This document shows positions 4,023-26,174 of a DNA stretch of 49,256 nt, one piece after another. Under the pieces are notes generated by a model. The model worked only from the letters and a program-made list of their open reading frames with translations, made no database searches and had not been told where the DNA came from. Source of the stretch: Candidatus Methanoperedens nitratireducens (lineage in GTDB: Archaea; Halobacteriota; Methanosarcinia; Methanosarcinales; Methanoperedenaceae); contig NZ_JMIY01000004.1 of NCBI RefSeq assembly GCF_000685155.1, positions 15,136-64,391 of the forward strand, given 5' to 3'. Made by a program: the position numbers and the translations under genes. Positions within the stretch are counted from its first letter, which is position 1; each line of letters starts with the position of its first letter.

Positions 4023-5456
4023 CTATCTTTTCCAGAACGATGGAACAAACAGTACAAGTACGGTCAATACTTCAAGTCTTCCTATCCACATATTGATTAG
4101 TAGGATTATCTTCCCTATTTCAGGAATTGCGGCGAAATTTGGGCCTACAAGATTAAAGCCAGGCCCCACATTGCCAAGTGTTGTTGCAGATGCACTCATG
4201 CTGGTTATCAGATCAAGTCCCATTGCACTCAGGATCAACGTACTTCCAACGAACGCAAGTAAATAGAGGACAAAAAACGAAAGGATTGCCTGCATCACAT
4301 CATCAGGGATAGATGTGTCGCCAATCCTGATAGGTCTGACCATTTTTGGATGGATCAACCTATATATTTCACGAAGACCGTATTTTATAAGAAGAATAAC
4401 CCTGATGACCTTCATGGCACCGGCTGTAGAACCAGCAGAGCCGCCCACGAACATCAGCAATAGCAGTATCATCTTCGTAGAATCGGGCCAGAGATCAAAA
4501 TTAGCTGATGCAAATCCTGCTGTTGTCATAATAGAAACAACCTGGAATGAAGCGTACCTGAATGCAGTCTGTAATGTTTCACCCCAGTTCCAGAGATAGA
4601 GTGTGATGATGAGTGTTGAAATAGCAATAATAAAAATATAGGCCTGGAACTCTTCATCTCTTATGAGGGATTTTCGCTCCACGCGCAGCGTTCGGTAGAA
4701 CATACTGAAGTTAACCCCTGCTATAAGCATGAATATGATTATAACGGCTTCAATAAAGGGGTCACCAAATGCGGCTATGGATTCATTTTTCGGAGAAAAA
4801 CCGCCCGTTGCCATGGTAGAAAACGTATGCACGATAGCATCGTACAGCGTCATCCCTGCAAATTTAAGAATAATTATTTCAAGAAGTGAAAATGTTAGAT
4901 AAACACCCCATAAGATCTGTGCAGTATCCTTGAGCCTTGGTCTTAGTTTATCCTTCATAGGGCCGGTTGTCTCTGCTCTGAACATCTGCCTGCCTGCCAC
5001 GGCAAGCCTGGGGAGGATCGCTATGACAAGGACAATAATTCCCATGCCTCCAAGCCACTGGGTCATACTTCTCCAGAAAAGGATGCTTCTTGAATAGATT
5101 TCAATCTCTGGCAGAATACTTGAGCCTGTTGTGGTAAACCCTGACATTGACTCAAACAATGAATCTATCGGGGATATTCCTGCTAACAAAAAAGGGATTG
5201 CTCCGAGCAGAGCTACTAAAAACCAGCCCATTGCCACAATGACAACACTCTCCCTGTGCGTGAGTTCATCAAACTCTGGCCTGTTTGTATATTCAAGTAT
5301 TGCCCCCATCACGGATACCAGAATGAATGTGATTGCAAAAATCAAGATGGATTCAGGCTCATTATAATACACTGCCACCACCAGCGGAATTAACAGAGAA
5401 ATCCCGAGAAATTTTATCACAGTACCAAGTATATTAAAAACGACCCTGTAGTTCAT
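4023..5456 (-). CDS. trkH: TrkH-family potassium uptake channel subunit
   Basis: Membrane protein of the TrkH/KtrB family, importing K+ (or Na+/K+) driven by the membrane potential. Seen: many hydrophobic segments arranged as four membrane-pore-membrane units, with selectivity-filter glycines in GFTTTGSS, MATGGFS, TTAGFAS and GNVGPGF. A basic loop after the third unit (KVIRVILLIKYGLREIYRL) and a C-terminal MWIGRLEVLTVLVLF are typical of the family. Length 477 is usual. No trkA gating subunit is next to it, so the partner must be encoded elsewhere. ATG at 5456, with a palindromic TATA element about 27 bases upstream. Confidence 0.93.
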   Translation of the reverse strand: MNYRVVFNILGTVIKFLGISLLIPLVVAVYYNEPESILIFAITFILVSVMGAILEYTNRPEFDELTHRESVVIVAMGWFLVALLGAIPFLLAGISPIDSLFESMSGFTTTGSSILPEIEIYSRSILFWRSMTQWLGGMGIIVLVIAILPRLAVAGRQMFRAETTGPMKDKLRPRLKDTAQILWGVYLTFSLLEIIILKFAGMTLYDAIVHTFSTMATGGFSPKNESIAAFGDPFIEAVIIIFMLIAGVNFSMFYRTLRVERKSLIRDEEFQAYIFIIAISTLIITLYLWNWGETLQTAFRYASFQVVSIMTTAGFASANFDLWPDSTKMILLLLMFVGGSAGSTAGAMKVIRVILLIKYGLREIYRLIHPKMVRPIRIGDTSIPDDVMQAILSFFVLYLLAFVGSTLILSAMGLDLITSMSASATTLGNVGPGFNLVGPNFAAIPEIGKIILLINMWIGRLEVLTVLVLFVPSFWKR

Positions 5457-5630: not shown

Positions 5631-6635
5631 ATGTCCAAATTATTTAATGAAATGGAGGATTTTGATAAAATCGAGAAGAAGATCAGCGGCTGGACTTTAA
5701 GACCGGTAGATAAAGAAAAGACCGATCCTCTTGAGATGGTTGATCTGAATTCTGGTTATGCGGTTGAGCAGTATCAATGGGATTATTACCATCAGGCTTT
5801 CGCTCTGACCCAGGACAGGGAACTGCAAAAATTATTTGCCAGAATCAGCCTTGAGGAGGAAGAACATGTCTCAATACTGGGATCTATTATAGATCCGAAA
5901 ATGACCTATATTGAATCAGGTATAGCACTTCAGATGACTGCAATCCAGGGATTCACAGAGGCTGCGCAACTGGAACCAGATGAATCCCTGAGGAACGCTT
6001 ATAATTACATGCTCTTGGATCACCTTACCCAGATGAGGATATTCTCTGATACCGCTCTCAGCCAGGGAACCAGGTCCCAGGATATCACCAAAGATAGCCT
6101 GAGAATTATGGAAGGCAGGCCTTTTGAGAAACAGTTTATCCCAACTGAAGCTCTACTTAAACAGCCCCTGGATAAAGACACAGCAGACATAATGAGCTTT
6201 GTCAATGCGCACACTATCCTGGCAAATGAGACTCAGCTCAGGAATGATCTTCAAATGTTCAGGAAAACGCTGCCAGCACAGGATCTACGCAGGCTTTTTA
6301 ATATGGTAGCTGCTGTTGAGAACCTGCATATTCTAATGCTTGAATCATTGCTGGACCCTGCGATCAGTCCGTTAGAGTATGCAATGATCAATGAATTAAT
6401 GGAGATCAGAAAGCATAATCAGGGTATGCAGTCAGCTAAACATAAGGATATTAGATCTGCTCATGAATACACCATGAAAGAGGATGAGGTGCATCTGAGC
6501 CTGCTTATGGATGCTTACAGCAGTTATGGCCCTTCAGATAGATTTGAACTGACAGATAGACTCTTTGCTCAACCTGAGATGTCGACTAATAAATATATTA
6601 ACCATTTTATGGATCAGATCCACCAGGCTATATAA
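5631..6635 (+). CDS. double ferritin-like (di-iron four-helix) protein, function unknown
   Basis: All-helical 334-residue protein that reads as two ferritin-like bundles in tandem. Seen in the first half: E46, an ExxH at E76/H79 inside EEEEH, E110 and the D130-H131 pair; in the second half: E200, ExxH at E230/H233 (ENLH), and D285xxH288 (DEVH). Such acidic/histidine patterns on successive helices are what rubrerythrin and ferritin-like families use to hold two irons; no rubredoxin CxxC module is present, so it is not classical rubrerythrin. No signal peptide. First gene of an operon with a CoA-disulfide-reductase-like flavoprotein (29 bases on), UspA and a P-type ATPase, suggesting oxidative or ionic stress response. 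Substrate is unknown; peroxide reduction is an inference. Confidence 0.7.
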   Translation: MSKLFNEMEDFDKIEKKISGWTLRPVDKEKTDPLEMVDLNSGYAVEQYQWDYYHQAFALTQDRELQKLFARISLEEEEHVSILGSIIDPKMTYIESGIALQMTAIQGFTEAAQLEPDESLRNAYNYMLLDHLTQMRIFSDTALSQGTRSQDITKDSLRIMEGRPFEKQFIPTEALLKQPLDKDTADIMSFVNAHTILANETQLRNDLQMFRKTLPAQDLRRLFNMVAAVENLHILMLESLLDPAISPLEYAMINELMEIRKHNQGMQSAKHKDIRSAHEYTMKEDEVHLSLLMDAYSSYGPSDRFELTDRLFAQPEMSTNKYINHFMDQIHQAI

Positions 6636-6664: not shown

Positions 6665-8062
6665 ATGTCAAAATCTGGTTCACCCTTACGTATTGTTGTG
6701 ATTGGTGGCGTTGCTGCCGGGATGAGTGCAGCGAGTAAAGCGCGAAGACTGAGGCCAGATATTGAGATTTTTGTGTTTGAGAGAAGCGGTCATGTATCCT
6801 ATAGTTCCTGCGGTATACCTTATTTTGTATCTGATATAGTTAAATCTCCTGAGAATCTTGTTGCCTATGATGCAAAATTCTTTAAGGAAAAAAGAAATAT
6901 CAATGTATTTCTATATCATGAGGTAATTTCGCTACACCCGGAAAAACAATCCATTCTTGTTCGGGACCTAAAGACTGGATTGGAGAATGAATACAGGTAT
7001 GACAAACTCGTGATTGCAACAGGTGCAAGAGCGAATATACCGCAGATCAAAGGGATTGAACTTAAGGGAATTTTTACGATACGAATACTTCAGGATGGAA
7101 TCAAAACAAAAGATTTTATCCGGGAAAATTCTCCCGGAAGGGCGCTTATCGTTGGCGCTGGCTACATAGGGATGGAGATGGCAGAGACGCTTGTGAAGTT
7201 AGGTCTAGATGTCACAATGGCTGCACGTGGACCTGATATTCTGGGAACTATGGAAAAAGAGATAGATGAAATAGTCGAGGATGAGCTTGGGAGAAATGGG
7301 ATCACACTTCTTAAATTCACACAGGTGAGGGAATTTACAGGTGAAAATGGATATGTCAGAAAAGCGATTTTTAATAACGGCAGGTCAGTGGATATTGATA
7401 TGGTAATTGTGGCCACGGGTGTAAGGCCAAACTCAGGAATTGCAAAGGAGGCAGGGATTGAGATCGGATATAAAGATGCGATCAGGGTGAACCAACGGAT
7501 GGAGACGAGTATTCCCGGCATCTATTCAGCCGGGGATTGTGCAGAGACATACCATCAGATCCTCGAAAGGTCGGTGTATCTTCCCCTGGGAACAACTGCA
7601 AATAAACAGGGGAGAGTAGCAGGAGAAAATATGGCAGGGGGTCATGCTTTATTCAGAGGGGTCGTCGGGACCTCCACCTTCAAGGTCTTTGATCTTGAGG
7701 TTGCAAGAACCGGCCTTTCCTCGAGAGAAGCAAAGATTGAAGGTTTTGATTATATCTCCAATGTCATTGAGCAGTATTCAAGAGCTAATTATTATCCTGG
7801 CGGTAGCAAGATACGGGTCAAGTTGATTGCTGAAAAGAACACAGGTCGGGTTCTCGGGGCTGAAATGGCGGGCAGGGATGGTGTTCCGAAGCGAATAGAT
7901 GTTATTGCTACGGCTATAACTGCTAAAATGACCGCGAAAGATATAGGGGACCTGGATTTGACCTACTCACCACCATTTGCACCTGTGTGGGACCCGGTTC
8001 TGACTGCTGCAAATGACCTCAAAAAGAGAATAACTATAAAAGAAGAGCACCCCAATCTATAG
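6665..8062 (+). CDS. CoA-disulfide reductase / NAD(P)H oxidase-family flavoprotein
   Basis: FAD- and NAD(P)H-binding oxidoreductase of the single-cysteine pyridine-nucleotide-disulfide group (CoA-disulfide reductase, NADH oxidase/peroxidase, NADH:rubredoxin-type enzymes). Seen: FAD motif VVIGGVAAGMSAASKARR at the N-terminus, redox-active C49 in SYSSCGIPY, LVIATGARANIP, NAD motif IVGAGYIGMEMAE, second FAD motif IYSAGDCAET, then the dimerisation domain ending in TYSPPFAPVWDP. No fused rhodanese domain. Length 465 is slightly over the family norm. Follows the ferritin-like gene closely; a flavoprotein beside a di-iron protein suggests an electron donor-acceptor pair in peroxide or oxygen removal (inference). 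Its stop codon lies inside a 20-base palindrome. Confidence 0.88.
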   Translation: MSKSGSPLRIVVIGGVAAGMSAASKARRLRPDIEIFVFERSGHVSYSSCGIPYFVSDIVKSPENLVAYDAKFFKEKRNINVFLYHEVISLHPEKQSILVRDLKTGLENEYRYDKLVIATGARANIPQIKGIELKGIFTIRILQDGIKTKDFIRENSPGRALIVGAGYIGMEMAETLVKLGLDVTMAARGPDILGTMEKEIDEIVEDELGRNGITLLKFTQVREFTGENGYVRKAIFNNGRSVDIDMVIVATGVRPNSGIAKEAGIEIGYKDAIRVNQRMETSIPGIYSAGDCAETYHQILERSVYLPLGTTANKQGRVAGENMAGGHALFRGVVGTSTFKVFDLEVARTGLSSREAKIEGFDYISNVIEQYSRANYYPGGSKIRVKLIAEKNTGRVLGAEMAGRDGVPKRIDVIATAITAKMTAKDIGDLDLTYSPPFAPVWDPVLTAANDLKKRITIKEEHPNL

Positions 8063-8074: not shown

Positions 8075-8887
8075 TTGTACCGGAAAATAGTATCTGCTGT
8101 AGATGGCTCCTTCCATTCTGAGCTTGCAGCCCATCATGCTATTGCCATAGCCTCTTCCTGCGATAGCGAACTTGTGGTGCTTGCGGTTGATACAGGGGAT
8201 GTAGAGCGAGAGAAGTTGTCATATTCAGTGGAACGTATATGCCAGCATTCAAAAGACTATGGCGTACAGGCAGAGGGTATTATAAGAAGAGGAGATGCTG
8301 TTAAAACAATTCTTAAAGTTGTTAACTCAGAGCGTGCTGATCTTTTAGTCTCAGCCACCCGCCGCAGTGAATATAGACTGTTTGTGAGGAGCATTACACA
8401 GAAGATCATGCTCAAAGCCCCCTGCTCTGTGATGGCAGTAAAACCAGCAGGAATCGCCAGGAGAGGGAAAAGCATGCTTCTGCCAGTCGCAAGCAGAGAG
8501 CTTGTTACTGACGAGCTGATAACACTCACCTCGTGCCTTGCAAAATTCTACGAACACAGGGTTGAGATATTTCATGTGGTGGAACTGCAGCGCTGGTACA
8601 CGCTCCCGTGGAAGGAGCTGTACACAATGCGCCATCATGGTGAAGAAGAGATGATGCCGGTTGCAAAAGTACTGAGAGAACAGGGCATTGATGTTGATGT
8701 GCGGGCAGTCATCTCAGAGAGCAGCATAAACGCCATTCCCAAGGAAGCTGCAATCGGAAGACACAGCCTTGCCCTCATGAGGGCAAGCCGTAGAGGAATT
8801 TTAAAACAGGTAGTATACGGAAATCCAATAGAACGGATGTTATCCAGCATACTCTGTGATGTTTTGATCTGGAGGCCAAAGCTGTGA
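8075..8887 (+). CDS. tandem universal stress protein (UspA) domains
   Basis: Two Usp folds of about 130 residues each. Seen: first domain begins YRKIVSAVDGSFHSELAAHHA and ends with APCSVMAVKPAG; second begins KSMLLPVASREL and ends RRGILKQVVYGNPIERMLSSILCDVLIWRP. The usual G-x2-G-x9-G(S/T) ATP motif is lacking in the first domain and only partly kept in the second (RRGI...YGNP), so it may not bind ATP well. Starts at TTG 8075, 12 bases after the previous stop; the stop overlaps the GTG start of the ATPase gene by 4 bases (GTGA), so translation is coupled. Usp proteins linked to ion pumps are often regulators of transport; here that is an inference from coupling. Confidence 0.82.
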   Translation: MYRKIVSAVDGSFHSELAAHHAIAIASSCDSELVVLAVDTGDVEREKLSYSVERICQHSKDYGVQAEGIIRRGDAVKTILKVVNSERADLLVSATRRSEYRLFVRSITQKIMLKAPCSVMAVKPAGIARRGKSMLLPVASRELVTDELITLTSCLAKFYEHRVEIFHVVELQRWYTLPWKELYTMRHHGEEEMMPVAKVLREQGIDVDVRAVISESSINAIPKEAAIGRHSLALMRASRRGILKQVVYGNPIERMLSSILCDVLIWRPKL

Positions 8888-11514
8888 GAATCCAGACCCT
8901 ATCAAAAGAAGAGGTACTTCGGGAACTTCATACTACAGAGCAGGGTCTGACAGAGAAAGAAGCAAGGAAGCGGCTTTTAGATTTTGGGGAGAACGAGATC
9001 GCTGAGAGGAAAAAAGTACCCTGGTTATTTCGATTTGCCTCACACCTTGTAGACCTGTTTGCAATTTTATTGTGGATTGCAGGAGGGCTTGCATTTCTTG
9101 TAAGCAGGCTTGCGGACGATGTGGGCATGGCATATATAGGGTTAGCTCTGGTCACGGTGATATTCATTAATGCTTTCTTCACCTTTTTACAGGAATACCG
9201 TGCAGAGAAGGCATCTGAGGCTTTGAAAAAATTAATGCCTTATCAGGCAAGCGTGATCCGGGAAGGAAAAGAGATACATATACCTGCAAGACAAATCGTG
9301 CCCGGGGATATAATTACCGTGAGGGCAGGAGATCGTGTGTCTGCGGATGCACGGATAATCAAGGTAGCCGACCTTGCAGTGGATATCTCTCATCTTACAG
9401 GAGAATCTGAGCCACAGGTAAGAAAAGACGTACCTAAAAAAGAATATGAAGAGCCGACCAACCTTATTTACTCAGGCTCCACCGTGGTAAGGGGAAATGG
9501 TATCGCAGCAGTTTTTGCAACAGGCATGGCAACAGAATTTGGGAAGATAGCGCACCTCACGCAGGAAATTGAAGAAGCACCAACACCGATTCAGCGGGAA
9601 CTAACCTATGTGGCTCGCACAATTACATTTATAGCGGTCGGACTCAGTTTTATATTTTTCACAGCAGGAGAACTTATCGGTATAGGTACCCAGGCTAACA
9701 TTCTCTTCGCCATTGGCATCATAGTGGCGAACGTGCCAGAGGGACTGCTACCAACAGTAACACTCTCCCTGTCCCTTGCAAGCCAGAGAATGGCGAGCAG
9801 GAATGCCCTTGTAAAAAGACTCTCCTCTGTAGAAACTCTCGGAGGCGCAACTGTGATATGCACGGATAAAACCGGGACTATTACGGAGAATAAGATGACC
9901 ATGGATTACATCTACACTCCTTATGAGAGCAAGAGCAAAAAACTATCAGATGCAGGGCCATCTGAGCTACTGCTGGCAGCGATACTATGCAATAATGCAA
10001 AAATAGAGGATAATAAGGTAATAGGTGAGCCTACAGAAGCAGCACTCCTGCAGGGTGCATCAACCATCATGGCTGATGTGCGTAGCGAGTGGGAACGAGT
10101 GGATGAGATCGCTTTCACCTCTGAGCGGAAAATGATGAGTACTGTGAACAGGAAAGAGAACATGCTCGTTCTATATTCCAAAGGTGCACCGGTGGTGATA
10201 CTTCCAAAATGTACGCGTATTGCAACAGAAAAAGGCATACAAAACATTACAGACGAGGATAGAGAACGAATAGTAGAACATGTATCGGATTACGCTGGCA
10301 GAGGCATGCGGGTAATTGCTTTTGCAAAAAAAAGCATAGAGGGAGAGTACACACGGGAGACCCTCGAAGAGAACATGGTATTCCTGGGGATCGGGGCACT
10401 GCGGGACCCGCCCAGAAAAGAGGTGCCGTATGCTGTTGAGAAATGCAAGAGAGCAGGCATAAAAGTAATAGTCATAACAGGGGACGACCCACTTACGGCT
10501 AAAACAATAGCAAGAGAGGTTGGAATAGCTAAAGAGCCAGTAACAATCACTGGCAGCCAGCTTGATATGATGCGTAAAAGAGAACTTGAGGAGGTTCTAC
10601 ACGGTGAGGTTCTATTTGCAAGGACAACGCCAGGACATAAGCTTCGCATCGTGAGGGCTCTAAAGGAGATGGGGAGTATAGTGGCAGTAACAGGCGACGG
10701 CGTCAATGATGCACCGGCACTTAAGGAAGCTGATATCGGCGTAGCGATGGGAAAAACAGGTACGGATGTTGCAAGAGAATCAGCAGATATGATACTGATG
10801 GACGATAACTTTGCAACTATTGTGCTGGCTGTAGAAGAAGGCAGGGCAATGTTCGATAACATAAGACGCTTCATAGCCTATATTTTCACCCATCTTGTTC
10901 CCCAGATTGTATCCTATATTCTCTTTGTGCTCCTGCGAATACCCCTGCCTCTTACGGTTATTCAGATCCTGGCAATCGATCTCGGCACTGAGATGGCACC
11001 ATCAATCGCTCTTGGGGCTGAGCGACCGGAGCCTGATGTGATGAACCGCCCACCTAGAAGAAGAGGTGAAAGAATACTCACAGTGCCAATACTTCTGCGC
11101 TCATATCTTTTCCTGGGTCTCATAGAGGCAATTGCAGCCATGAGCGCCTATTACTACGTGTTAACAGGTGGAGGCTGGAGCTACGGTATGCCCCTCTCAG
11201 ATGCAGATCCCCTTTATCTTAAGGCTACCACTATCACCCTTGCAGCTATAGTCATAACACAGGTAGCGAACAGCCTAACCAGCCGCACTACAAAGGAATC
11301 AGTGTTCAAAATAGGCATTTTCACAAACAAATACCTTATAATAGGCATAGCAATAGAACTGATCCTTCTATTCCTTATAGTATATACCGAGCCCTTACAG
11401 CGTATAACAGGCACAGCGCCATTAGAATTAAACGAATGGCTCATCCTTGTGCCTTTCGCAGTGCTGCTCCTTTTTGCAGATGAGCTGCGGAAATGGCTGG
11501 TAAGAAAATCATAA
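8884..11514 (+). CDS. P2C-type (Na,K-ATPase-like) cation-transporting P-type ATPase
   Basis: Large membrane ion pump of P-type class II. Seen: actuator TGES (172-175), M4 IGIIVANVPEGLLPTVT with E286, phosphorylation motif DKTGTIT with D328, TGDGVNDAP at 603-611, and M5-M6 with IPLPLTVIQILAIDLGTEMAP, which follows animal Na,K-/H,K-ATPase alpha much more closely than Ca-ATPases; even the C-terminal DELRKWLVRK resembles the DEVRK ending. Compared from memory with Na,K-ATPase, the M4 Glu and M6 Asp (D699) are kept, D808 is Glu (E703), but M5 positions S775, N776 and E779 are H670, L671 and Q674. Transported ions are therefore uncertain. No beta subunit is evident. Starts at GTG 8884 inside the uspA stop. 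Last gene of the operon. Confidence 0.88.
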   Translation: MRIQTLSKEEVLRELHTTEQGLTEKEARKRLLDFGENEIAERKKVPWLFRFASHLVDLFAILLWIAGGLAFLVSRLADDVGMAYIGLALVTVIFINAFFTFLQEYRAEKASEALKKLMPYQASVIREGKEIHIPARQIVPGDIITVRAGDRVSADARIIKVADLAVDISHLTGESEPQVRKDVPKKEYEEPTNLIYSGSTVVRGNGIAAVFATGMATEFGKIAHLTQEIEEAPTPIQRELTYVARTITFIAVGLSFIFFTAGELIGIGTQANILFAIGIIVANVPEGLLPTVTLSLSLASQRMASRNALVKRLSSVETLGGATVICTDKTGTITENKMTMDYIYTPYESKSKKLSDAGPSELLLAAILCNNAKIEDNKVIGEPTEAALLQGASTIMADVRSEWERVDEIAFTSERKMMSTVNRKENMLVLYSKGAPVVILPKCTRIATEKGIQNITDEDRERIVEHVSDYAGRGMRVIAFAKKSIEGEYTRETLEENMVFLGIGALRDPPRKEVPYAVEKCKRAGIKVIVITGDDPLTAKTIAREVGIAKEPVTITGSQLDMMRKRELEEVLHGEVLFARTTPGHKLRIVRALKEMGSIVAVTGDGVNDAPALKEADIGVAMGKTGTDVARESADMILMDDNFATIVLAVEEGRAMFDNIRRFIAYIFTHLVPQIVSYILFVLLRIPLPLTVIQILAIDLGTEMAPSIALGAERPEPDVMNRPPRRRGERILTVPILLRSYLFLGLIEAIAAMSAYYYVLTGGGWSYGMPLSDADPLYLKATTITLAAIVITQVANSLTSRTTKESVFKIGIFTNKYLIIGIAIELILLFLIVYTEPLQRITGTAPLELNEWLILVPFAVLLLFADELRKWLVRKS

Positions 11515-16966: not shown

Positions 16967-19051
16967 ATGATTATGTATATTAAATTTGTATTTATCTTTT
17001 TTGTCCTGCTCCTGACGTACACAACACCATCGTTGGCAGCCCCTATTCACTTCTCAAACCTTATCGCAAACCCTGGATTTGAGAGTGGTACAACAAAGCC
17101 CCTGAACTGGAGCTTTGTGACAGTCGATGGAAATACGCCCTTATGGAGTACCGTTTCTTATAGTGGCAGTAGATCTGTGAAAATAAGTGTCCCGGGGACA
17201 ACCGATAGTAAAAGTGGATACCCAAAATCAGATTTAATAGAAGTTGAGTCGCTTCAGAACTACATCCTCTCGGTCTGGTTTAAGACCCAGGGGGCAGGAG
17301 GTACTAACGCGCCTGCAATAAGGGTGGTGGAACTGGATGCTAATAAAAAGGTACTAAAAAATATCGGCTTCAATTTTAAAAAGGGCACAAACGACTGGAC
17401 ACAGAAGCAGATTACCTTCAGGACAGGTATCAATACAAGATGGGTCTATGTGTATGCCAATACATGGGATGGTTATGGTACACTCTGGATAGATGATGTA
17501 GAGTTAAGACGCTCAAACCTCATCGCAAACCCTGGATTTGAGAGTGGTGCAACAAAGCCTCTGAACTGGAGCTTTGTGACAGTCGATGGAAATACGCCGT
17601 TATGGAGTACCGTTTCTTATAGTGGCAGTAGATCTGTAAAAATAAGCATCCCGGGGACAACGGATAGTAAAAGTGGATACCCAAAATCAGATTTGATAGA
17701 AGTTGAGTCGCTTCAGAACTACATCCTCTCGGTCTGGTTTAAGACCCAGGGGGTAGGAGGTACGAATGCGCCTGCAATAAGGGTGGTGGAACTGGATGCT
17801 AATAAAAAGTCGCTAAAAAATATCGGTTTCAATTTTAAAAAGGGCACAAACGACTGGACACAGAAGCAGATTACCTTCAAGACAGGTACCAATACAAGAT
17901 GGATCTATGTGTATGCCAATACATGGGATGGTTACGGTACACTCTGGGTAGATGATGTAGAGTTGAGGCCCTATTCATATATCATTTATACAGATGGCAT
18001 AAATACATATGCAAAAAATGGTTATACAGGAAAAATAGATTACAGTGGTACAGACTCAACAATTATAATACAGAATGCATTAGATATGGTAGATAATAAT
18101 CCAACACTTGGTAAGAAACAATATTATGTATATTTAAAAGGTAAATTTACAGTAACCGGGATAAACGTTAAAAGTAATACAGTTTTAGATCTTAGAGAAG
18201 CAATAATCATATCCTCTGGAAATACAATTCCATTGAGACTATCAGGTACAAGTAATAGTAAAATTATTGGCGGAGTAATTGATTGTAATAGTCAAACAGA
18301 TGGTAACACAAATATGCGTTGTATTAGTTTATTGAATACTGATAAAGTTACTATTGATGGAACAGAAGTTAAAAATGGTGGGTACTATGGAATTAACTTA
18401 TGGCAGGCAAATAACAATATTATTAAAAACGTGTACTCACATCATAATTTCGTGGGTGGAATACATCTTGGAAGTGATACTGCCGGGCGGGGCTGGTATA
18501 ATACAGTTCAAAATTCCATATTTAAAAATAACAGGATTAGTGGACTTAGTGATAGGGGAAGTACAGTACCGAATGAAAAACTCTATAATACGTATAATTC
18601 AATAACAGCGATAAATAATAATGCAACAAGTGATTCAAGAGGAATATTTTTATCTGGAACTGGATCTACTGATGCAGTATTTACATTAAACGACATTACA
18701 GTATTAAATAATACTCATGGTTTACTGGCTGAAAATGCTTCAGTTTATATTACCAATCTTAATGCAAGTTATAACAAAGAATCCGGTTTATTCATGAGAG
18801 CAGTAAGAAATTCGACAATAATAAATGTAACTGCAAATGATAATGGGAAAAAAGCATATAGTGGTGGAATACGAATTATTGATTTGTTTGGCAGAGCTTC
18901 TCAGGACATTACAGTAATTGGGACTGAAGCAAGAAGGAATTGGAGAAATATATATGTGTTCTCTAATGTTGGATCAAAAAATATAACATTTGATTCAATT
19001 GATGCAACAGACGGGGTAGACTCAAATGTGTTTATTTATGGTGTTCAGTAG
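16967..19051 (+). CDS. secreted surface protein: two carbohydrate-binding-like domains plus parallel beta-helix
   Basis: Predicted exported cell-surface or glycan-active protein of about 694 residues. Seen: signal peptide in the first ~25 residues (hydrophobic core FVFIFFVLLLTY, cleavage near SLA-AP); two adjacent ~153-residue jelly-roll domains of CBM4/9 type (each starting LIANPGFESG and ending WVDDVELR or WIDDVELR); then from about residue 335 a right-handed beta-helix with N-rich rungs (NIIKNVYSHHN, NSTIINVTAND). No membrane anchor or sorting tail seen. Start: GTG 16964, ATG 16967 and ATG 16973 are in frame; ATG 16967 is preferred from TATA spacing. The first half has ordinary base composition, the beta-helix half is much more AT-rich, suggesting a chimera. 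An IS4-like remnant begins right after the stop, so the C-terminus may have been trimmed. Confidence 0.8.
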   Translation: MIMYIKFVFIFFVLLLTYTTPSLAAPIHFSNLIANPGFESGTTKPLNWSFVTVDGNTPLWSTVSYSGSRSVKISVPGTTDSKSGYPKSDLIEVESLQNYILSVWFKTQGAGGTNAPAIRVVELDANKKVLKNIGFNFKKGTNDWTQKQITFRTGINTRWVYVYANTWDGYGTLWIDDVELRRSNLIANPGFESGATKPLNWSFVTVDGNTPLWSTVSYSGSRSVKISIPGTTDSKSGYPKSDLIEVESLQNYILSVWFKTQGVGGTNAPAIRVVELDANKKSLKNIGFNFKKGTNDWTQKQITFKTGTNTRWIYVYANTWDGYGTLWVDDVELRPYSYIIYTDGINTYAKNGYTGKIDYSGTDSTIIIQNALDMVDNNPTLGKKQYYVYLKGKFTVTGINVKSNTVLDLREAIIISSGNTIPLRLSGTSNSKIIGGVIDCNSQTDGNTNMRCISLLNTDKVTIDGTEVKNGGYYGINLWQANNNIIKNVYSHHNFVGGIHLGSDTAGRGWYNTVQNSIFKNNRISGLSDRGSTVPNEKLYNTYNSITAINNNATSDSRGIFLSGTGSTDAVFTLNDITVLNNTHGLLAENASVYITNLNASYNKESGLFMRAVRNSTIINVTANDNGKKAYSGGIRIIDLFGRASQDITVIGTEARRNWRNIYVFSNVGSKNITFDSIDATDGVDSNVFIYGVQ
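17053..17970 (+). repeat. 459-bp tandem direct repeat within the surface-protein gene
   Basis: Two copies, 17053-17511 and 17512-17970, differ at only a small number of positions by eye; the period is 153 codons, so the frame is kept. This encodes the duplicated carbohydrate-binding-like domain. Near identity at silent sites points to a recent duplication or ongoing gene conversion. Confidence 0.9.
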
Positions 19052-19267
19052 CTAACTAACTCTCTTGACCGTTGGGGACGTATTTTAGCACCTGTCATTG
19101 AGGCATTGCAACAGATGTAATGGCTGTCCGGCAGGCTCATCCACATTGTTTCAGATAGGGAATTTGCCAGTCCCAGGATTGCGGGATGGCTCAAAACAAC
19201 AAACAGGAACGTGGATGCAACACTGAGAATATCAGGTTTTAACTCAGCGATATCTCAGAAGAATTAA
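19052..19267 (+). pseudogene. remnant of an IS4-like DDE transposase
   Basis: In one frame the stretch reads TNSLDRWGRILAPVIEALQQ, a stop (19118-19120), then WLSGRLIHIVSDREFASPRI and AGWLKTTNRNVDATLRI to a TAA at 19265-19267. The DREF motif with following WL...LRI is the second catalytic-aspartate region of IS4-type transposases. Both the N-terminal part with the first aspartate and the C-terminal part with the glutamate are missing, and there is an internal stop, so it is dead. No terminal repeats found. It abuts the stop of the surface-protein gene, marking a past insertion or deletion at the edge of the AT-rich island. Confidence 0.7.
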
Positions 19268-19301
19268 GTATATTGATGTAACAAGGTAAAGTTAATAGAT
19301 T

Positions 19302-19523
19302 ATGAAAAACAACGAGAATTTATTTAACCACTTAAGCAGGGTTATACTACATTTACCGATATTATTTCTAATTTCTATTCTTCCGATCCTCTTCTTACTG
19401 GGCTATACCGGACATGCGATCAGGACGTTATACCTGTTACCGCCAGTTATACTGAGCTTTATTTTTCTACTAAGAAATAAAAATGTTTTAGATTCCTTAC
19501 AGCAAAAATCATTTTTTTTTTAA
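19302..19523 (+). CDS. 5' part of a split membrane glycan-synthesis protein
   Basis: Encodes 73 residues with two hydrophobic helices (HLPILFLISILPILFLLGY and LYLLPPVILSFIFLL). It ends immediately at a run of ten T (19512-19521). Adding one T (or removing two) would continue straight into the 19541-21223 frame through NISNTK, giving one protein of about 640 residues. So this is the N-terminal piece of that gene, separated by a homopolymer frameshift, real or due to sequencing. Confidence 0.65.
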   Translation: MKNNENLFNHLSRVILHLPILFLISILPILFLLGYTGHAIRTLYLLPPVILSFIFLLRNKNVLDSLQQKSFFF

Positions 19524-19540
19524 ATATATCTAACACAAAA

Positions 19541-21223
19541 GTGTTTTTGATATTGTATTTATTATTATATTCTTATAGTTTATTTCTCTTATATGAATAT
19601 TACGAGAGGCCAATTTTATATTTTTTAGTCTTATCTCTTATAAGCATGATTCTATTTTTGGAAATTCTTTCATGTAAAAATAACTTTGACAAACATTTGA
19701 TATTAATACAAATTATACTTCTACAATTAAATTTGATATGGGGCCAGAACTTAAAATATTTCTTCGTTTTTGGTTATACAGATATTTTCGTACATTTATA
19801 TTATATACAGAGTATATTAGATAGCTTTCATATAACTGATGCTATGGATTATTATGAATATGCGCCCATATACTATATTTTCAACGCAATGGGCATAATA
19901 ATTATGGGCATTAATACAAATGTTGCATTTTTTATTTTAACAGCTCTCTCATATGTTCCCTCTACTCTTTTTATCTATTTGATATTCAAGTCATTAACAA
20001 AAAATGAAAAAATTTCTTTATTAGGGGTTTTATTCTTTGCAATAAGTAGAAAATTTATATTTCATGGAACCTATGTGATTCCACTATCATTAGGATTCGT
20101 CATATTTTTAATAATAGTATTCTTACTCATAAAAACAAATGAAATTAAAATTTTTAGATCAAAAACTTTATTTAATTTATTTCTAATACTTTTCAGTTTT
20201 ATATTGATTATTGAACATCAAACAACTACTATTTTTGTAGCTTTCATATTGCTTCTATTATTGTTATCGGAGATACTAATTTACAAAAAAGATTATATAA
20301 TATCTAGAAAGTATGTTCTTCTATTTATATGTGGATTTTTAGCGCACTGGTTCTTTGTGCAATATGTTATGGTAGCAAATACAGTTTACCAGATGAAAAA
20401 ATCAGTTTTGTATGATAACGAAGTTTTTTCAGGAGCATTGCCAATAACATTAGGTGAATTTTTATTAAATAGTATAGATTATATGCTAATAGTATTTTTA
20501 GCATTTATCGGCATCTTCTGTGCTTATTATACGGCAGACATACATAAGAACAGAATAAGAAATATCGTACTCTTGATCTTGCCAATTGCAATATTTTTCT
20601 ATATTCCAGGCCCGGCTGGTCTTCTTGGAGAAATATTCCTTACTAATAGACTCCCTTTGCTTATGATGCCGTTTGTAGTGCTTGCCATGGCATTTGGAAC
20701 AATTTATTTGTATACTATACTTTATAATAAAAATAGTAGAGATAGAGCCATAGGAATCTCTATATTAATAGTTGGTTTTTTTGCTTTTTTTTCTATGTTC
20801 AATTCAGTAAATAGTCCAGAATTGAACATAAGCTGGCTAAATATCGAAAGTGACTTATACTTTAATGAAGCAGAAATATCTGGTTTTTCTTTTTTAGAAG
20901 GTATTTTTAATAATAGTATAGATGCAGTTTATTCTGATTATCATACCTGGAATTATTTTTCTAGATATTTAAGTCATTTTTCAAAAAGCTACATAATAGA
21001 GCAAACGGATGTTGGATACATAAATAAAGGATATATTGTGCTCAGGATAGAAGAGTTCAAAGATAAACTATTGTGGCTAACCGAAGGAAGGATAGTTGGT
21101 ATTAAAGGACCTAAATTATATAGATATAAATATTCTGAATCGGATGAATTAATACCAACGTCCGAACTTAACCAGAAAATTTATGATAACTCGTTTATAT
21201 CTATATATAAATATAGATCATAG
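19541..21223 (+). CDS. polytopic membrane protein, GT-C glycosyltransferase or polysaccharide polymerase-like (3' part of a frameshifted gene)
   Basis: About 560 residues with a dozen hydrophobic segments, then a soluble C-terminal domain of about 110 residues. Seen: a loop after the first helices with GYTDIFVHLYYIQSIL, matching the acidic-aromatic first loop of GT-C type glycosyltransferases that use polyprenyl-phosphate sugars, and a short-chain pattern YEYAPIYYIF. The apparent start is GTG 19541, but the frame is open upstream to the poly-T tract and the true start is probably ATG 19302 (see the 5' part). Very AT-rich codons compared with the genes outside the region. Role in surface glycan assembly is inferred from fold and from neighbours; a Wzy-type polymerase is the alternative. 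Confidence 0.6.
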   Translation: MFLILYLLLYSYSLFLLYEYYERPILYFLVLSLISMILFLEILSCKNNFDKHLILIQIILLQLNLIWGQNLKYFFVFGYTDIFVHLYYIQSILDSFHITDAMDYYEYAPIYYIFNAMGIIIMGINTNVAFFILTALSYVPSTLFIYLIFKSLTKNEKISLLGVLFFAISRKFIFHGTYVIPLSLGFVIFLIIVFLLIKTNEIKIFRSKTLFNLFLILFSFILIIEHQTTTIFVAFILLLLLLSEILIYKKDYIISRKYVLLFICGFLAHWFFVQYVMVANTVYQMKKSVLYDNEVFSGALPITLGEFLLNSIDYMLIVFLAFIGIFCAYYTADIHKNRIRNIVLLILPIAIFFYIPGPAGLLGEIFLTNRLPLLMMPFVVLAMAFGTIYLYTILYNKNSRDRAIGISILIVGFFAFFSMFNSVNSPELNISWLNIESDLYFNEAEISGFSFLEGIFNNSIDAVYSDYHTWNYFSRYLSHFSKSYIIEQTDVGYINKGYIVLRIEEFKDKLLWLTEGRIVGIKGPKLYRYKYSESDELIPTSELNQKIYDNSFISIYKYRS

Positions 21224-21262
21224 AACTTATTGTTGGTTAAAGTTAATCGCGTAAGTCCTGAA

Positions 21263-22459
21263 TTATTTAAATTTTTGTTTTAACTTGCTACAATAAAGCG
21301 CTATTTCTTCAGTTACACGCCCCCAGCTATATTCTTTTGTTGCTTTATTATAACCTGTGCAAGACAATTTTTCACATATTTCTTTGTGATCTAATAAATA
21401 AATTATAGCATCACTTAATTCGCCAGCATTGTCAGGAGGTTTTATAAGACCACAACCATTCAAATACTGTTTAATTCCCCATATGTCAGTAGAGATTACA
21501 GGTTTACCACAGGCCATGTATTCAAAAATTTTTAGTGGAGAGAAGTCAAGGTCTTTTTTGCTTGTATCATACGGAGCAATACAGATGTCTGCTGAGTTTA
21601 TGTACCACACTATTTCTTTGTGTGGAACACGCCCGATCAATCTGATGTTTTTTTGTATTTTCAATTTATTGATCATATACAATATATAGTCCTTGAATTG
21701 ACCATCCCCAACAATTAAAAAAACAGTGTTTGGGTGTTTTTTTAGGACAATAGGCACAGCCTCAACTAAATAACTTAGCCCTTGCCACTGTTCAAGAGAC
21801 CCTGTAAATATAACATATTTAGTTTCAAGATTTAAATTTAATTTTTTCCGAGCTATTGCGGTGTCGATTGGTTTGAATATATTTATATCAACACCATTGT
21901 GTAAAGGTACAATTTTGTCTTGAGCTATATTAAACCTGTATTTCAGCATCTTAATAATCCCTTTACCACTGGTTGAAACAAAAACATATGAAGCGTTTGT
22001 TAATACAATTTTTTCTACAATTCTAATAACATAGGAAAACATGATTAAAATTATTTTATTTGGTCTAAAAGCATATTCTATTTCACCATATTGATGTAAA
22101 ATACCGTTGACCTCTATAACATACGGGATTTTCAAGATTTTACTCAGCAGGTATGCAGAGAACGAATTAATCCCGTGACGAACATATATTAAGTCGATAC
22201 TTTCTTTTCGACCTGTTTTTAGACCAATTAAAAAAGATTTTAGAATAAATTTTATTAAATTATATAAAAACTTTGGTGACGTGGTCTCTAATCCCAGCGG
22301 GATTATTTTCAAATTAAACGAATCATGAAAATCAAATGCTGATGGACATATCACAAATAATTCGTGTTCAGAAGGAAAATTATAGAGAATTCCTTTTAGG
22401 TGAATCTCTGTTGCAGTAGAATGTTTCCAGGCCATTCCTGAAAGAAATAGAAATTTCAT
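21263..22459 (-). CDS. glycosyltransferase family 4
   Basis: Two-domain GT-B glycosyltransferase transferring a sugar from a nucleotide donor, with retention. Seen: N-terminal acceptor domain with YVRHGINSFSAYLLSKI and VIEVNGILHQYGE; C-terminal donor domain opening VIFTGSLEQWQGLSYLVEA and carrying FLIVGDGQFKDYI, RLIGRVPHKEI and the E-x7-E-like SPLKIFEYMACGKPVIS nucleotide-sugar site. Length 398 is normal, no membrane helix. ATG start. Minus strand, convergent with the split membrane gene and 84 bases downstream of the DUF362 gene, so within the glycan cluster. Sugar specificity cannot be told. Confidence 0.9.
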   Translation of the reverse strand: MKFLFLSGMAWKHSTATEIHLKGILYNFPSEHELFVICPSAFDFHDSFNLKIIPLGLETTSPKFLYNLIKFILKSFLIGLKTGRKESIDLIYVRHGINSFSAYLLSKILKIPYVIEVNGILHQYGEIEYAFRPNKIILIMFSYVIRIVEKIVLTNASYVFVSTSGKGIIKMLKYRFNIAQDKIVPLHNGVDINIFKPIDTAIARKKLNLNLETKYVIFTGSLEQWQGLSYLVEAVPIVLKKHPNTVFLIVGDGQFKDYILYMINKLKIQKNIRLIGRVPHKEIVWYINSADICIAPYDTSKKDLDFSPLKIFEYMACGKPVISTDIWGIKQYLNGCGLIKPPDNAGELSDAIIYLLDHKEICEKLSCTGYNKATKEYSWGRVTEEIALYCSKLKQKFK

Positions 22460-22543
22460 TTCTTATCACTTTTTTGAGAACAACAGATGAGTACAAAATT
22501 AGCTGTATCCAACCATTTCTTTAAAAACCACATATAAAATTAC

Positions 22544-23608
22544 TTATGTTTTTAGTCTTAATATAAATAAAACTTTTAATCTTATAATCAAACCTCTGAC
22601 ATATCTAAAGCCATCTTTTTTGAAAAGTGTCCCGAATTCAGAACTATTATAATATCCTCTGGCAAAGATCATGAGCCCACCACCTGCTAATGAAATAAAT
22701 TTTGATACTCCTTCAAAATAACGATTTACCCTGAAACTGCACTTATTTAGAAATAATGCGAATCTATATGATAAATAAGAATACACAGGTATAAACTCGA
22801 ACTTTCCTTCCGCAATATTCCCGATCACTTCAGGTTTTGTTGTGCCCAGACCTTTTTTTTCAGCATATCGTAAATTAGGCACTCTTTCAGGATCAAACCC
22901 CATTATTCTGGCAGCAACTGCGTCTGTTGCTACTGGATTATTCCCAACTATGATCATTCCTGCCTCTTTTTTATAACCATCGGAAGGTCCAGGTCCCTCC
23001 ATTCCCACGATTCCATCGATAATACAGAAAGGTCTGTAATACTCAGCCAGATCCACCAGCACTTCTGACATGAACGGATGATACTTTGCCTTGTACTTCT
23101 CAGGCAGCAGACCAAAAAGATTCTTCATATTACAGGTTATCTTCTGCTGGATATGAGTTTTTAATTTTGCAATAGATATGATTTTAGTTGCTCCAAGTAA
23201 GGTTTCTGTAGTATTAAGCGTCTCAAAATAATGACCTTCCAGTACCACCTCATAGCGTTTATCTTTGCTCAGGTTTACAAGCTCAACCCCCAGTCTTTCA
23301 GCCATTTCTTTATAGCCCATCCGTTCAAATTCTTCATCCGCAGTAGCTACAGCATGATCACTTTCGACTATGGTAATTTTTGGATTTGCTTTTTCTCTAA
23401 TAATCTTTATAAAAGCTTCAACGATTCTTGGATCGGTTGTGCCTCCTTCCCAGGCTGGTCTAAAATCACACAGGTTGGGTTTGATAACAATATTATCCCG
23501 GTCATTTACTTCAAAATGCAGGACATCCAGGGCTTCTCTTAAATTTGGTTCAATATTTGCTTCTGAATCCCGCATTTTTTTGATTAAGACTTTATCGTTA
23601 TCTATCAT
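22544..23608 (-). CDS. DUF362 domain protein
   Basis: Belongs to the DUF362 family, whose biochemical role is unknown; members sit in polysaccharide and maturation clusters. Seen: NIVIKPNLCDFRPAWEGGTT, TIVESDHAVATADEEFERMG, IISIAKLKTHIQQKITCNMKNLFG and the NNPVATDAVAARIMGFDPERV block, all diagnostic. There is no 4Fe-4S ferredoxin tail as seen in some members. The ATG at 23608 overlaps the stop of the upstream Gfo/Idh/MocA gene (ATGA), so the two proteins are made together. Confidence 0.85.
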   Translation of the reverse strand: MIDNDKVLIKKMRDSEANIEPNLREALDVLHFEVNDRDNIVIKPNLCDFRPAWEGGTTDPRIVEAFIKIIREKANPKITIVESDHAVATADEEFERMGYKEMAERLGVELVNLSKDKRYEVVLEGHYFETLNTTETLLGATKIISIAKLKTHIQQKITCNMKNLFGLLPEKYKAKYHPFMSEVLVDLAEYYRPFCIIDGIVGMEGPGPSDGYKKEAGMIIVGNNPVATDAVAARIMGFDPERVPNLRYAEKKGLGTTKPEVIGNIAEGKFEFIPVYSYLSYRFALFLNKCSFRVNRYFEGVSKFISLAGGGLMIFARGYYNSSEFGTLFKKDGFRYVRGLIIRLKVLFILRLKT

Positions 23609-24603
23609 TTCTTTGTTACCTCTACGAATATTCCCTTCTCATACGATTCATAAGCCGCAAGGGTTGATTCCAGGGTTTTATAGCCTTCAGTACCATTCAC
23701 TACAGGCGTTCTATCTTCCATGATGCATTCAAAGAAATGCCTGAATTCTTCGTGATATGCTGAAATTTTTTTATCTGCCTTAATTCTTATAGGTGCCTGT
23801 GCAACAACCCCTTTGGGTGTAAAAAGCACCTCATTTTTACTTCCATTTGCATATATAAATCCTCCATCCCCGTAAACCCTTATTTCATTTATGCTCAAAT
23901 CTCCCCATACAACCGCAAGGTTAGCAGCAGCTCCATTTTTGAACTCCATATAAACATTGGCTGTATCATCAATAGTAATATCCTTGTTCAGCGTTTTGAT
24001 GTTCCCAAAAACGTTCCTGATATCTCCAAGATACCATCGTATTAGATCCATGTGGTGGCAACCCATTTCAAAAAGAGCTCCTCCGCCTTCTCTGGAGTAC
24101 TGGAACTTAGATTTTGAGGGCCAAACAGAGGCATTTGTAAAAAAAGTTGAAGAAGCTCCTATCAAATGCCCCAGAAATCCTTTTTCTATAAGTTCGTGAA
24201 CCTTCTTAAACTGAGGAATAAATCTAAAATTTAAGCCAACCATAAGTTTGACACCTGCTTTTTCAGAAGCTTCTACCATGTCTTTGGCTTTTTCAAGGCT
24301 TGTTTCCATTGGCTTTTCACAAAATATGTGTTTTCCAGCTTCTGCACATTCTATTGCTATTTGAGAATGAAATTTAGGGGGAGTTAATATGAATACAGCA
24401 TCAATATCTTTTGATAAAACTTTTTTGTAATCGCTGAAAGTTTCACAATTCAGGCTATACTTGTTTTTTAGTTCCTTTGCACGTTCTTCATTTGCATCAA
24501 CCAGAGCAACAATTTCAAACTCTGGCATCCTCTGGAGCGTTGGTATGTGAAAAACTTCCGCCACAGCACCGCATCCTATTATTGCTAATTTTATTTTTTT
24601 CAT
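23605..24603 (-). CDS. Gfo/Idh/MocA-family NAD(P)-dependent sugar dehydrogenase
   Basis: Oxidoreductase acting probably on a nucleotide-sugar or free sugar. Seen: N-terminal Rossmann motif AIIGCGAVAEVFHIPTLQ, the family's EKP motif in HIFCEKPMETSLEKAK, VGLNFRFIPQFKKVHELI, and the GGGALFEMGCHHMDLIRWYLG segment with the proposed catalytic histidine. Length 332 is usual. ATG at 24603. Coupled by overlap to the DUF362 gene. Other members make UDP-acetamido sugars for surface glycans, which fits the location, but the substrate is not shown. Confidence 0.88.
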   Translation of the reverse strand: MKKIKLAIIGCGAVAEVFHIPTLQRMPEFEIVALVDANEERAKELKNKYSLNCETFSDYKKVLSKDIDAVFILTPPKFHSQIAIECAEAGKHIFCEKPMETSLEKAKDMVEASEKAGVKLMVGLNFRFIPQFKKVHELIEKGFLGHLIGASSTFFTNASVWPSKSKFQYSREGGGALFEMGCHHMDLIRWYLGDIRNVFGNIKTLNKDITIDDTANVYMEFKNGAAANLAVVWGDLSINEIRVYGDGGFIYANGSKNEVLFTPKGVVAQAPIRIKADKKISAYHEEFRHFFECIMEDRTPVVNGTEGYKTLESTLAAYESYEKGIFVEVTKK

Positions 24604-24717
24604 TTCAACTCTCCTGCCACATATCCGTTTTCGACGTTTGCTATCATAACTAACAACATCACTTCTTTTGACTGATTATTACATTTTCCGAGTTAAGGCT
24701 CATAATTTAATGGTGTT

Positions 24718-26064
24718 TTATTTTTGATAGATCAGACTTCTGGTAAATAAAAATTTCCCGCTATCACTTGGTTTTATCTCATTAACAAAATTGAATTCTA
24801 CTTTGCAGGATTCACCCATGACAGCTTTTATCTTATTTTCAATATCTTTCAAATCATTTTCATCCTTTTCTCCATACAATACTATATAGATCCGAATAAA
24901 ATTGTAATCCACCTGTATAATTTGAAATTTATTAACCCAGTTCTTAAAGTAAAATAGACCTCTAAAATATCCCCCATGAACTAAAGTGCCATCTTTCCTT
25001 TTAAAATGGTCTGAAACTCTGCCAGTAATTTCAGAAAGCATAGAGAACCCCCTGCCGCAGGAGCATATTTTAGTTGAAACTATTCCCATATCCCCTATAT
25101 CGTATCTTATCAAAGGCATAGAATAATTATCAAGATTGGTCACATAAATTTTTCCAGCCTCCTCTATATTAACAGGTTCTAAATCATTATTTAATACTTC
25201 TAAATATTGTGAATATTCAAAAATATGAAGTCCTTCTTGATTTATACACTCAACAGCAATATCACCAACCTCTCTTGAGCCATACTGATTTATAACCTTA
25301 GTTTTAAATACATCTTCAACAAAACCTCTGACATCTTTATGTAGAGTTCCTGAAGTAACAATGATCGATCGGGGAGACCAGATATTAAAGTTATTTCGAT
25401 CAATGAACTTTGAAAATTCGTAGATAGAATCTACATATGCCCAGACATACACAGGTTTAAAATCATTCCAAATTTTTACATAGTTTTCCATTTTTTCTTC
25501 ACTCATTAAAAAACTATTTAAAAGAACTCTGTTGATTAACCAGTTGTAAAATTTAGCCTTATAACCTGTAGAACCTTTTAAGATATCTCTCTCGGAACCC
25601 CATAAATGAATCTCTTTTTCACCTATATTTTTTCCATTAACTAATGGAAAATAAACCTTCGTAGCCATTAATTTAGCCAGGTATTCTTTATCCTGTATGA
25701 ATTTAACTGGAACTCCTGTGGACCCCCCGGAAGTGTTAAAATACCATTTCCTTTTATTCAAATCTTTACTCTTTAGTTCTTCAAAATTTTTCCGAATAAT
25801 ATCTTTTGTAAGTATTGGGATTTTTGAAAAGTTATCTAAATTGATCTTTCCATCAATAACCACGCCACTTTCGCTCAAGACTCTATTATAATATGGCACA
25901 TTTCTATAAGCATGCAGAAGCAAGGTTTTTAATCTCTCTCTCTGAATGGCTTTAATCTCCTCTTTATTCTTATATTCTATACTTTTAATAAATTCTAATG
26001 TTTTAGGAATTTCACTTCCGGTCAGCTTTAGCAGACCTATAATAATTGGCTTCCTCCAGTTCAT
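24718..26064 (-). CDS. PaaK/CapK-like adenylate-forming enzyme
   Basis: Phenylacetate-CoA ligase-like AMP-forming protein of the CapK group found in capsule clusters. Seen: the family N-terminus with LLLHAYRNVPYYNRVL, P-loop-like NTSGGSTGVPVKFI, an INQYGSREVGDIAVECINQ motif that contacts adenylate, MPLIRYDIGDMG, and a CxC pair in KICSCGRGFSML before the C-terminal lid domain. Length 448 fits. Very AT-rich. It could activate a carboxylic acid for attachment to surface polysaccharide, an inference from CapK homologues; coenzyme F390 synthetase-like activity is a less likely alternative. Confidence 0.82.
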   Translation of the reverse strand: MNWRKPIIIGLLKLTGSEIPKTLEFIKSIEYKNKEEIKAIQRERLKTLLLHAYRNVPYYNRVLSESGVVIDGKINLDNFSKIPILTKDIIRKNFEELKSKDLNKRKWYFNTSGGSTGVPVKFIQDKEYLAKLMATKVYFPLVNGKNIGEKEIHLWGSERDILKGSTGYKAKFYNWLINRVLLNSFLMSEEKMENYVKIWNDFKPVYVWAYVDSIYEFSKFIDRNNFNIWSPRSIIVTSGTLHKDVRGFVEDVFKTKVINQYGSREVGDIAVECINQEGLHIFEYSQYLEVLNNDLEPVNIEEAGKIYVTNLDNYSMPLIRYDIGDMGIVSTKICSCGRGFSMLSEITGRVSDHFKRKDGTLVHGGYFRGLFYFKNWVNKFQIIQVDYNFIRIYIVLYGEKDENDLKDIENKIKAVMGESCKVEFNFVNEIKPSDSGKFLFTRSLIYQK

Positions 26065-26166
26065 ACTAAAAATCCCTCTATGATTGAACTGCCTGCCAGT
26101 TCCTGGATGTTGTATATAGCTTCATAATTAATCCAAGCCTGCAATCTAAAATCCGATTTTTAGTAT
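26063..26166. repeat. 12-bp inverted repeat spanning the gap between the PaaK-like and GT2 genes
   Basis: atactaaaaatc (26063-26074) and gatttttagtat (26155-26166) are exact reverse complements, 80 bases apart. They bracket almost exactly the intergenic DNA. No gene lies inside. Could be a long-range hairpin ending the GT2 transcript or the ends of a small inserted element. Confidence 0.45.
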
Positions 26167-26174
26167 TACTCTTT

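Follow-up and report, generated by a model that had tools for sequence, protein, structure and literature searches.

A histidine-bearing ion site in a P2C-like ATPase of Candidatus Methanoperedens nitratireducens and its counterparts in other prokaryotes

The animal Na,K-ATPase and the gastric and non-gastric H,K-ATPases are the closest described relatives of the protein considered here, a cation pump encoded in a 49,256-nucleotide stretch of the methane-oxidising archaeon Candidatus Methanoperedens nitratireducens (contig NZ_JMIY01000004.1, positions 15,136 to 64,391; this whole stretch is the window, its protein the window pump, and ion-site positions follow Na,K-ATPase numbering). According to the parts of PMC9463140 that treat the ion sites, four side chains hold K+ in the non-gastric H,K-ATPase, those of Glu346, Asn795, Glu798 and Asp823 (E327, N776, E779 and D804), Lys794 forms a salt bridge to Asp827 (position 808), and Lys791 of the gastric enzyme bridges Glu820 (position 804). 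Both H,K-ATPases keep the equivalents of N776 and E779 (Asn792/Glu795 in the gastric pump, from the relevant part of PMC8481561; Asn795/Glu798 in the non-gastric pump, PMC9463140), and Na,K-ATPase has a lower affinity for K+ when its Ser775 is replaced by Ala, Cys or Tyr, as told in the portion of PMC6262219 on that residue. In its sections on these families, Palmgren 2023 (PMC10654040) describes basic residues of the fifth transmembrane helix (M5 or TM5) as built-in counter-ions in P1A, P1B-2, P3A and P4A pumps, with His in P1B-4, and lists the function of the archaeal P2C pumps as an open question, none having been characterised as of that date. The window pump carries His, Leu and Gln in place of Ser775, Asn776 and Glu779, and basic residues at position 775 appear to have arisen several times among its relatives.

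The ion site of the window pump

The open reading frame is intact, with zero internal stops. Its Pfam domains (Cation_ATPase_N, E1-E2_ATPase, Cation_ATPase and Cation_ATPase_C) and its motifs TGES (172), DKTGT (328) and TGDGVNDAP (603) establish that the product is a P-type ATPase of the P2 (type II) cation-pump group; VPEGLLP (284) and THLVPQ (669) are present too. Na,K- and H,K-ATPases are its nearest solved structures by sequence and by fold, with 38% identity to animal Na,K-ATPase alpha in the structural alignment. They are also the best matches of an AlphaFold model (mean pLDDT 82.8, pTM 0.71); the VIA Z values of the fold matches differ little among many P2 pumps, and SPCA1 and LMCA1 are among them. 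The first-pass annotation had M4-M6 and the C-terminus following animal Na,K-ATPase closely. The overall fold and an ungapped M4-M6 core are indeed shared, but family membership is not: the score against TIGR01106 (animal Na,K/H,K-ATPase alpha) was 626.6 bits, far below the curated cut-off of 946.1. Scores also fell below the cut-offs for PMR1-type Ca2+ pumps (TIGR01522, 663.2 against 798.3 bits) and SERCA-type Ca2+ pumps (TIGR01116, 542.1 against 703.4 bits). The pump may work like a Na,K- or H,K-ATPase alpha subunit, yet it is not filed in TIGR01106. No beta subunit was seen among the eight window proteins that were domain-scanned, next to its gene or elsewhere.

Since M5 and M6 align without gaps to the solved Na,K-ATPases, the earlier hand alignment holds: Ser775, Asn776 and Glu779 are replaced as it had proposed, and the M4 Glu and the D804 equivalent are retained (Table 1). 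A shift in that alignment was ruled out by the alignments to solved Na,K- and H,K-ATPases. Three changes had gone unremarked, namely D808 to E703, P782 to S677 and D926 to N796. From the Na,K-ATPase site I/II set (S775, N776, E779, D804, D808 and E327) the window pump thus keeps only E327 and D804, which are also the two survivors of the four side chains that hold K+ in the non-gastric H,K-ATPase; Q923 (Q793), E954 (E825) and Y771 are kept as well. The resemblance to the H,K-ATPases lies in a base at the same M5 position and an acidic side chain at the partner positions in M6. It is imperfect, as the base is His and not the Lys that marks those enzymes, the N776 and E779 equivalents are lost, and the Glu is at 808, unlike that of the gastric pump at 804.

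Table 1. Coordinates of the pump, its ion-site residues and neighbouring genes in the window (NKA, Na,K-ATPase; gHKA and ngHKA, gastric and non-gastric H,K-ATPase)
Feature	Position	Strand	Basis and remarks
P2-type (P2C-like) cation-pump ATPase	8884..11514	+	876 aa, GTG start; domain matches, fold
E286 in M4 = NKA E327, kept	9739..9741	+	alignment
H670 in M5 = NKA S775; ngHKA K794, gHKA K791	10891..10893	+	alignment
L671 in M5 = NKA N776 (K+ ligand)	10894..10896	+	alignment
Q674 in M5 = NKA E779	10903..10905	+	alignment; Q in 3/167 rows
S677 in M5 = NKA P782	10912..10914	+	alignment
D699 in M6 = NKA D804, kept	10978..10980	+	alignment
E703 in M6 = NKA D808	10990..10992	+	Glu808 confined to His775 rows: 6/13 His, 0/153 Ser
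N796 in M8 = NKA D926	11269..11271	+	N is the usual state in prokaryotic relatives, 93/100 rows
M5-M7 stretch, aa 641-765; recombination patch, most likely on the L091 side, L091 as divergent as a distant species	10804..11178	+	dS, permutation, trees
Two-domain universal stress protein, same operon	8075..8887	+	domain matches
CoA-disulfide-reductase-like flavoprotein, upstream	6665..8062	+	profile matches; among four clade loci compared, common only to L218
Ferritin-like protein, upstream	5631..6635	+	weak EncFtn-like match, below cut-off; among four clade loci compared, common only to L218
TrkH potassium-uptake protein, 3.4 kb upstream of pump	4023..5456	-	profile matches

Because K+ ligands are lost, Ser775 mutants of Na,K-ATPase bind K+ less well and TM5 bases serve as counter-ions elsewhere, we tentatively favor a reading in which the window pump would be a working P2-type exporter with His670 and Glu703 as a built-in counter-ion, exporting H+ (or Na+) independently of K+. 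The proposed principle resembles that of the P3A H+-ATPases and other TM5 counter-ion pumps such as KdpB with its Lys586 (pertinent sections of PMC10654040). With the side-chain ligands S775 and N776 and the E779 carboxylate gone, the counter-ion pocket would have been rebuilt with His and with D808 lengthened to Glu. His670 would be protonated in the outward-facing state, pair with Glu703 in the manner of Lys794 and Asp827 of the non-gastric H,K-ATPase, and substitute for K+ as the trigger of dephosphorylation. The pump would then export H+, our first choice, or less probably Na+, with no K+ import, and K+ entry would be left to other systems such as Trk. P3A and similar pumps are different families, with the base, Arg655 in the P3A pump AHA2, elsewhere in the helix.

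Basic residues at position 775 among prokaryotic relatives

Relatives were gathered from several sources: every match scoring above 1000 bits in 392 Halobacteriota genomes (66 matches); the P2C-like matches among the best 80 of the 293 relatives recovered with six query peptides (genome contigs); a Methanosarcina genus sample (22 matches in 21 of 30 genomes); Actinomycetota, through plasmids only (9 of 468 matching records taken, 8 counted); and 70 of 87 Nitrospirota matches, from 198 Nitrospirota genomes. Before a 96-row set was formed, duplicates (L001, L113, L011, L237-L239) and paralogs (L002-L004) were taken out, as were L134 for an internal stop and L030 for a frameshift; L179-L182 (other P2 type) and L229 (Ser-Asn-Glu, lost to a motif filter) were then removed from that set. 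Three Nitrospirota rows (L257, the same as L014; L271, a misread frame; L315, another P2 type) and one plasmid row of another type (L251) were also removed, leaving a census of 167 rows, 166 of them distinct (L015 equals L242).

Position 775 is Ser in 153 of the 167 rows, His in 13 and Lys in one, with no other residue seen. All three replacements are indeed uncommon among relatives, Ser-Asn (SN) being kept at 775-776 in 153 rows, and the full combination of H, L, Q and E808 is found in the window pump only (1/167). Asp occupies position 804 in 166 of the 167 rows, and Glu stands at the E327 place in 100/100 relatives. These figures make the pattern in the window pump more than a chance one. 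The pumps compared, from Methanosarcina, Nitrospirota, Chloroflexota and Actinomycetota among others, are uncharacterised members of the same subfamily. The His rows read His-Leu (HL) at 775-776 in the window pump, L092, L093, L118, L243 (Embleya) and L287 (Nitrospirota); His-Thr (HT) in L135, L146 and L235 (Methanosarcina, genus inferred); His-Ala in L246 (Mycolicibacterium) and L247 (Rhodococcus); and His-Asn in L249 (Streptomyces) and L258 (Nitrospirota). Those from three Methanosarcina, two Nitrospirota and four actinobacteria are 40-51% identical to the window pump, and a motif unique to this archaeon is thereby ruled out. The Lys row, L309 (G628:C1:68065-70683, Nitrospirota), has Lys-Ile at 775-776 with Glu804, the gastric H,K-ATPase pair; it is the second copy in its genome, 56% identical to the other, which is of the SN type.

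The basic residue varies together with its surroundings. N776 is lost in 12/14 rows with a basic 775 against 0/153 Ser rows, and Glu is present at 804 or 808 in 7/14 against 0/153 (Fisher 5e-9, uncorrected for descent), that is, at the partner positions of Lys in the gastric and non-gastric H,K-ATPases. A tree built without the M5-M6 columns requires at least 7 changes of the basic state, and independent pairs point in the same direction, 3-4 : 0 for the M6 Glu and 4-5 : 0 for loss of N776. The Methanosarcina HT rows lie within an SN clade. A single origin of all His pumps was set aside, as a tree that unites the archaeal HL clade with the His rows of actinobacteria is worse by 21.5 log-likelihood units, though the approximately unbiased (AU) test (p 0.071) is not a formal exclusion. 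Related microbes thus appear, from these trees, to have made the change to a basic 775 several times.

The first-pass annotation had likened the His to the gastric Lys that alters proton coupling. This analogy gains from the repeated turn to a base together with an M6 Glu, once as the exact K775/E804 pair, and loses from the concurrent loss of K+ ligands. An electroneutral exchanger of the H,K-ATPase kind, in which His would act as Lys791/794 and H+ would leave while one K+ enters at a residual site II, would suit the position of the His, the existence of L309 and the trk genes near several members, which point to K+ business. It is rather unlikely for the window pump, which lacks N776 and the E779 carboxylate: these account for two of the four side chains that hold K+ in the non-gastric enzyme, and both H,K-ATPases have them. 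K+ exchange is doubtful because the M5 change removes K+ ligands besides adding a base. Both the His and the Ser types conserve the equivalents of E954, Q923 and Y771 (100 rows), and SN relatives dominate the census, which would also accord with continued Na+ export by a Na+ (or Na+/K+) pump of altered affinity whose site III-like residues E825, Q793, Y666 and T669 remain. We consider this unlikely: Asn takes the place of D926 in most of these pumps, the window pump has two more of its carboxylates weakened or shifted, and both S775 and N776 are gone.

Several points weigh against K+-free export by a built-in counter-ion. His, unlike Lys, needs a suitable pH to be charged. A base at 775 is by itself no proof of K+ independence, given that wild-type H,K-ATPases have one and transport K+ all the same. 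The sign tests of co-variation fall short of 0.05 because the independent pairs are too few, D808 is retained in 7/13 His pumps and N776 in two, and the ferritin-like neighbor would fit a metal better.

A viral origin was set aside, as a scan of viral contigs gave zero relatives. A loose DNA pattern for the motif, run over the 392 Halobacteriota genomes, returned mostly noise, although it still recovered the window gene, G388 and G259, and a literature search for S775H, K791H, K794H and Ser775His as whole words found none of them. Separately, other P2-type paralogs of Methanoperedens (L098, L099, L100, L101, L104 and L106) read GLGCHIGEVL or GIGCHIGEVL in M5, with a Cys-His pair whose His takes the N776 place, and L180, from the same order, reads GISTHTGEVL; this is possibly a metal site.

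Exchange of the M5-M7 stretch

The closest ortholog, L091 from a Ca. Methanoperedens nitroreducens bin, is 87% identical in protein and of the SNE/DD type; it was among the best 80 of 293 relatives. Orthologs of at least 75% identity are present in 4/34 genomes of the family sample (window genome included) and in 4/185 across the order, where two more genomes have 52% relatives. One of 51 genomes of another family (G103, an assembly of 90 contigs) has a 71% copy, L118, which may reflect transfer or mis-binning.

Over aa 291-640 the synonymous divergence (dS) between the window pump and L091 is 0.18. It rises to 1.25 over aa 641-765, about equal to the 1.28 that separates the window pump from L092, a 77% ortholog. 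The synonymous differences are clustered, with 36 in 60 comparable codons at aa 687-763, whereas permutations reached 29 at most (0/20,000 permutations). At differing sites in aa 681-765 the window pump matches two or more of L092, L093 and L118 at 33/62 and L091 does so at 14/62, the corresponding values in aa 291-640 being 25/64 and 22/64. As L091 agrees less often with these relatives in the segment, it is the likelier recipient of an M5-M7 patch, the donor presumably being an unsampled SN-type relative. A tree of the segment without the three trait columns placed the four HL rows together (79/86) with L091 outside. For the rest of the gene the window pump and L091 were joined (100), a grouping that the segment on its own does not reject (AU p 0.106). 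A second, weaker patch of divergence from L091 lies at aa 151-229 (p 0.0005; window 9151-9750, covering the A domain and M3-M4).

With L091 as the probable recombinant and the HL rows grouped in the segment tree, HL would most simply be ancestral to the Methanoperedens/G103 clade and kept there under purifying selection. An ion site that is relaxed or drifting as the pump loses function could be suspected from the window pump alone adding Q674, and S677 too, to the H/L change. It is highly improbable given a whole-gene ratio of nonsynonymous to synonymous divergence of 0.09-0.19 in four pairwise comparisons (0.12 to L092, 0.10 to L093), intact catalytic motifs, the retention of H/L in L092, L093 and L118, and its occurrence in other rows.

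A broader proposal is that prokaryotic P2C-like pumps have a recurrent two-state M5 switch. SN would be the exchange state; His or Lys, with N776 missing and a Glu partner in M6, would be a built-in counter-ion and the state for K+-free H+ export. In Methanoperedens it would move as a module, because homologous recombination replaces M5-M7 while most of the pump is nearly unchanged. Microbes would then have turned a sodium pump into an acid pump on several occasions, one of them with the Lys/Glu pair of the gastric enzyme. We regard this wider proposal as doubtful, more so than the counter-ion in the window pump.

Genomic neighborhood and significance

The start of the pump gene overlaps the stop of the stress-protein gene by 4 bp, and a stress-protein gene stands beside the ATPase in every member of the clade (L091, L092, L093 and L118) and in the SN relatives L012, L015, L114 and L121, in total 8/54 P2C loci with flanks, the window uncounted. 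Genes resembling universal stress proteins also adjoin the pumps L287 and L258. Judged by sequence appearance, a His-type pump and its stress protein in Nitrospirota (L328 7820-11339) sit between complex I and cytochrome b/Rieske genes, and acetyl-CoA synthetases lie near the pump in two clade loci (L218 15668-17617; L220 13599-15578), that of L220 adjoining the stress protein.

On the L091 contig three upstream genes follow the window's order with 92-97% identity, and G103 has two trkH genes and one trkA next to its stress-protein/ATPase pair. Two trkA genes are directly downstream of the pump in 10/24 loci tested, all bacterial (L016, L018, L019, L020, L021, L022, L024, L025, L031 and L252); the five trkA genes of these clusters that were scanned have Pfam TrkA_N and TrkA_C, and no trkH beside clusters of a P2C-like ATPase with two trkA (RCK) genes was found by BLAST. 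These neighbors tie the P2C-like group to K+ handling, the ion itself being left unspecified, and the trkA pair may regulate the bacterial pump itself. Trk linkage as a mark of the His types was ruled out, the pair being mostly downstream of SN pumps. In a literature search on a pump-TrkA-stress protein operon, the titles among the matches listed dealt mainly with Trk, Kdp or osmoregulation.

The ferritin-like and flavoprotein genes, present in the window and L218, would suit a divalent-metal pump (Mn2+, Fe2+ or Ca2+) with His, Glu and Asp as a mixed ligand set, as would the fold matches to SPCA1 and LMCA1. This explanation is quite unlikely, since the ferritin-like neighbor is absent beside L092, L093 and L118 and, by sequence, the pump matches Na,K- and H,K-ATPases better than Ca2+ pumps. 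Asn768 and Glu771 of the Ca2+ pumps, in SERCA numbering, are likewise replaced.

Farther downstream, window positions 18000-27000 form an A+T-rich island (26-37% G+C against about 45%) with glycosyltransferases, beside a beta-helix protein and with two large open reading frames without Pfam match (19541-21223 and 24718-26064); it looks like a cell-surface sugar island.

The interest of the window pump lies in the repeated, coupled change of its ion site and in the exchanged cassette. Together with L091 it forms a natural near-matched pair whose strongest difference is in the ion-site cassette, and, with the His and Lys variants that other phyla have independently, this pair would offer a direct test of the choice among Na+, H+ and K+ and of the need for a counter-ion in P2C pumps.

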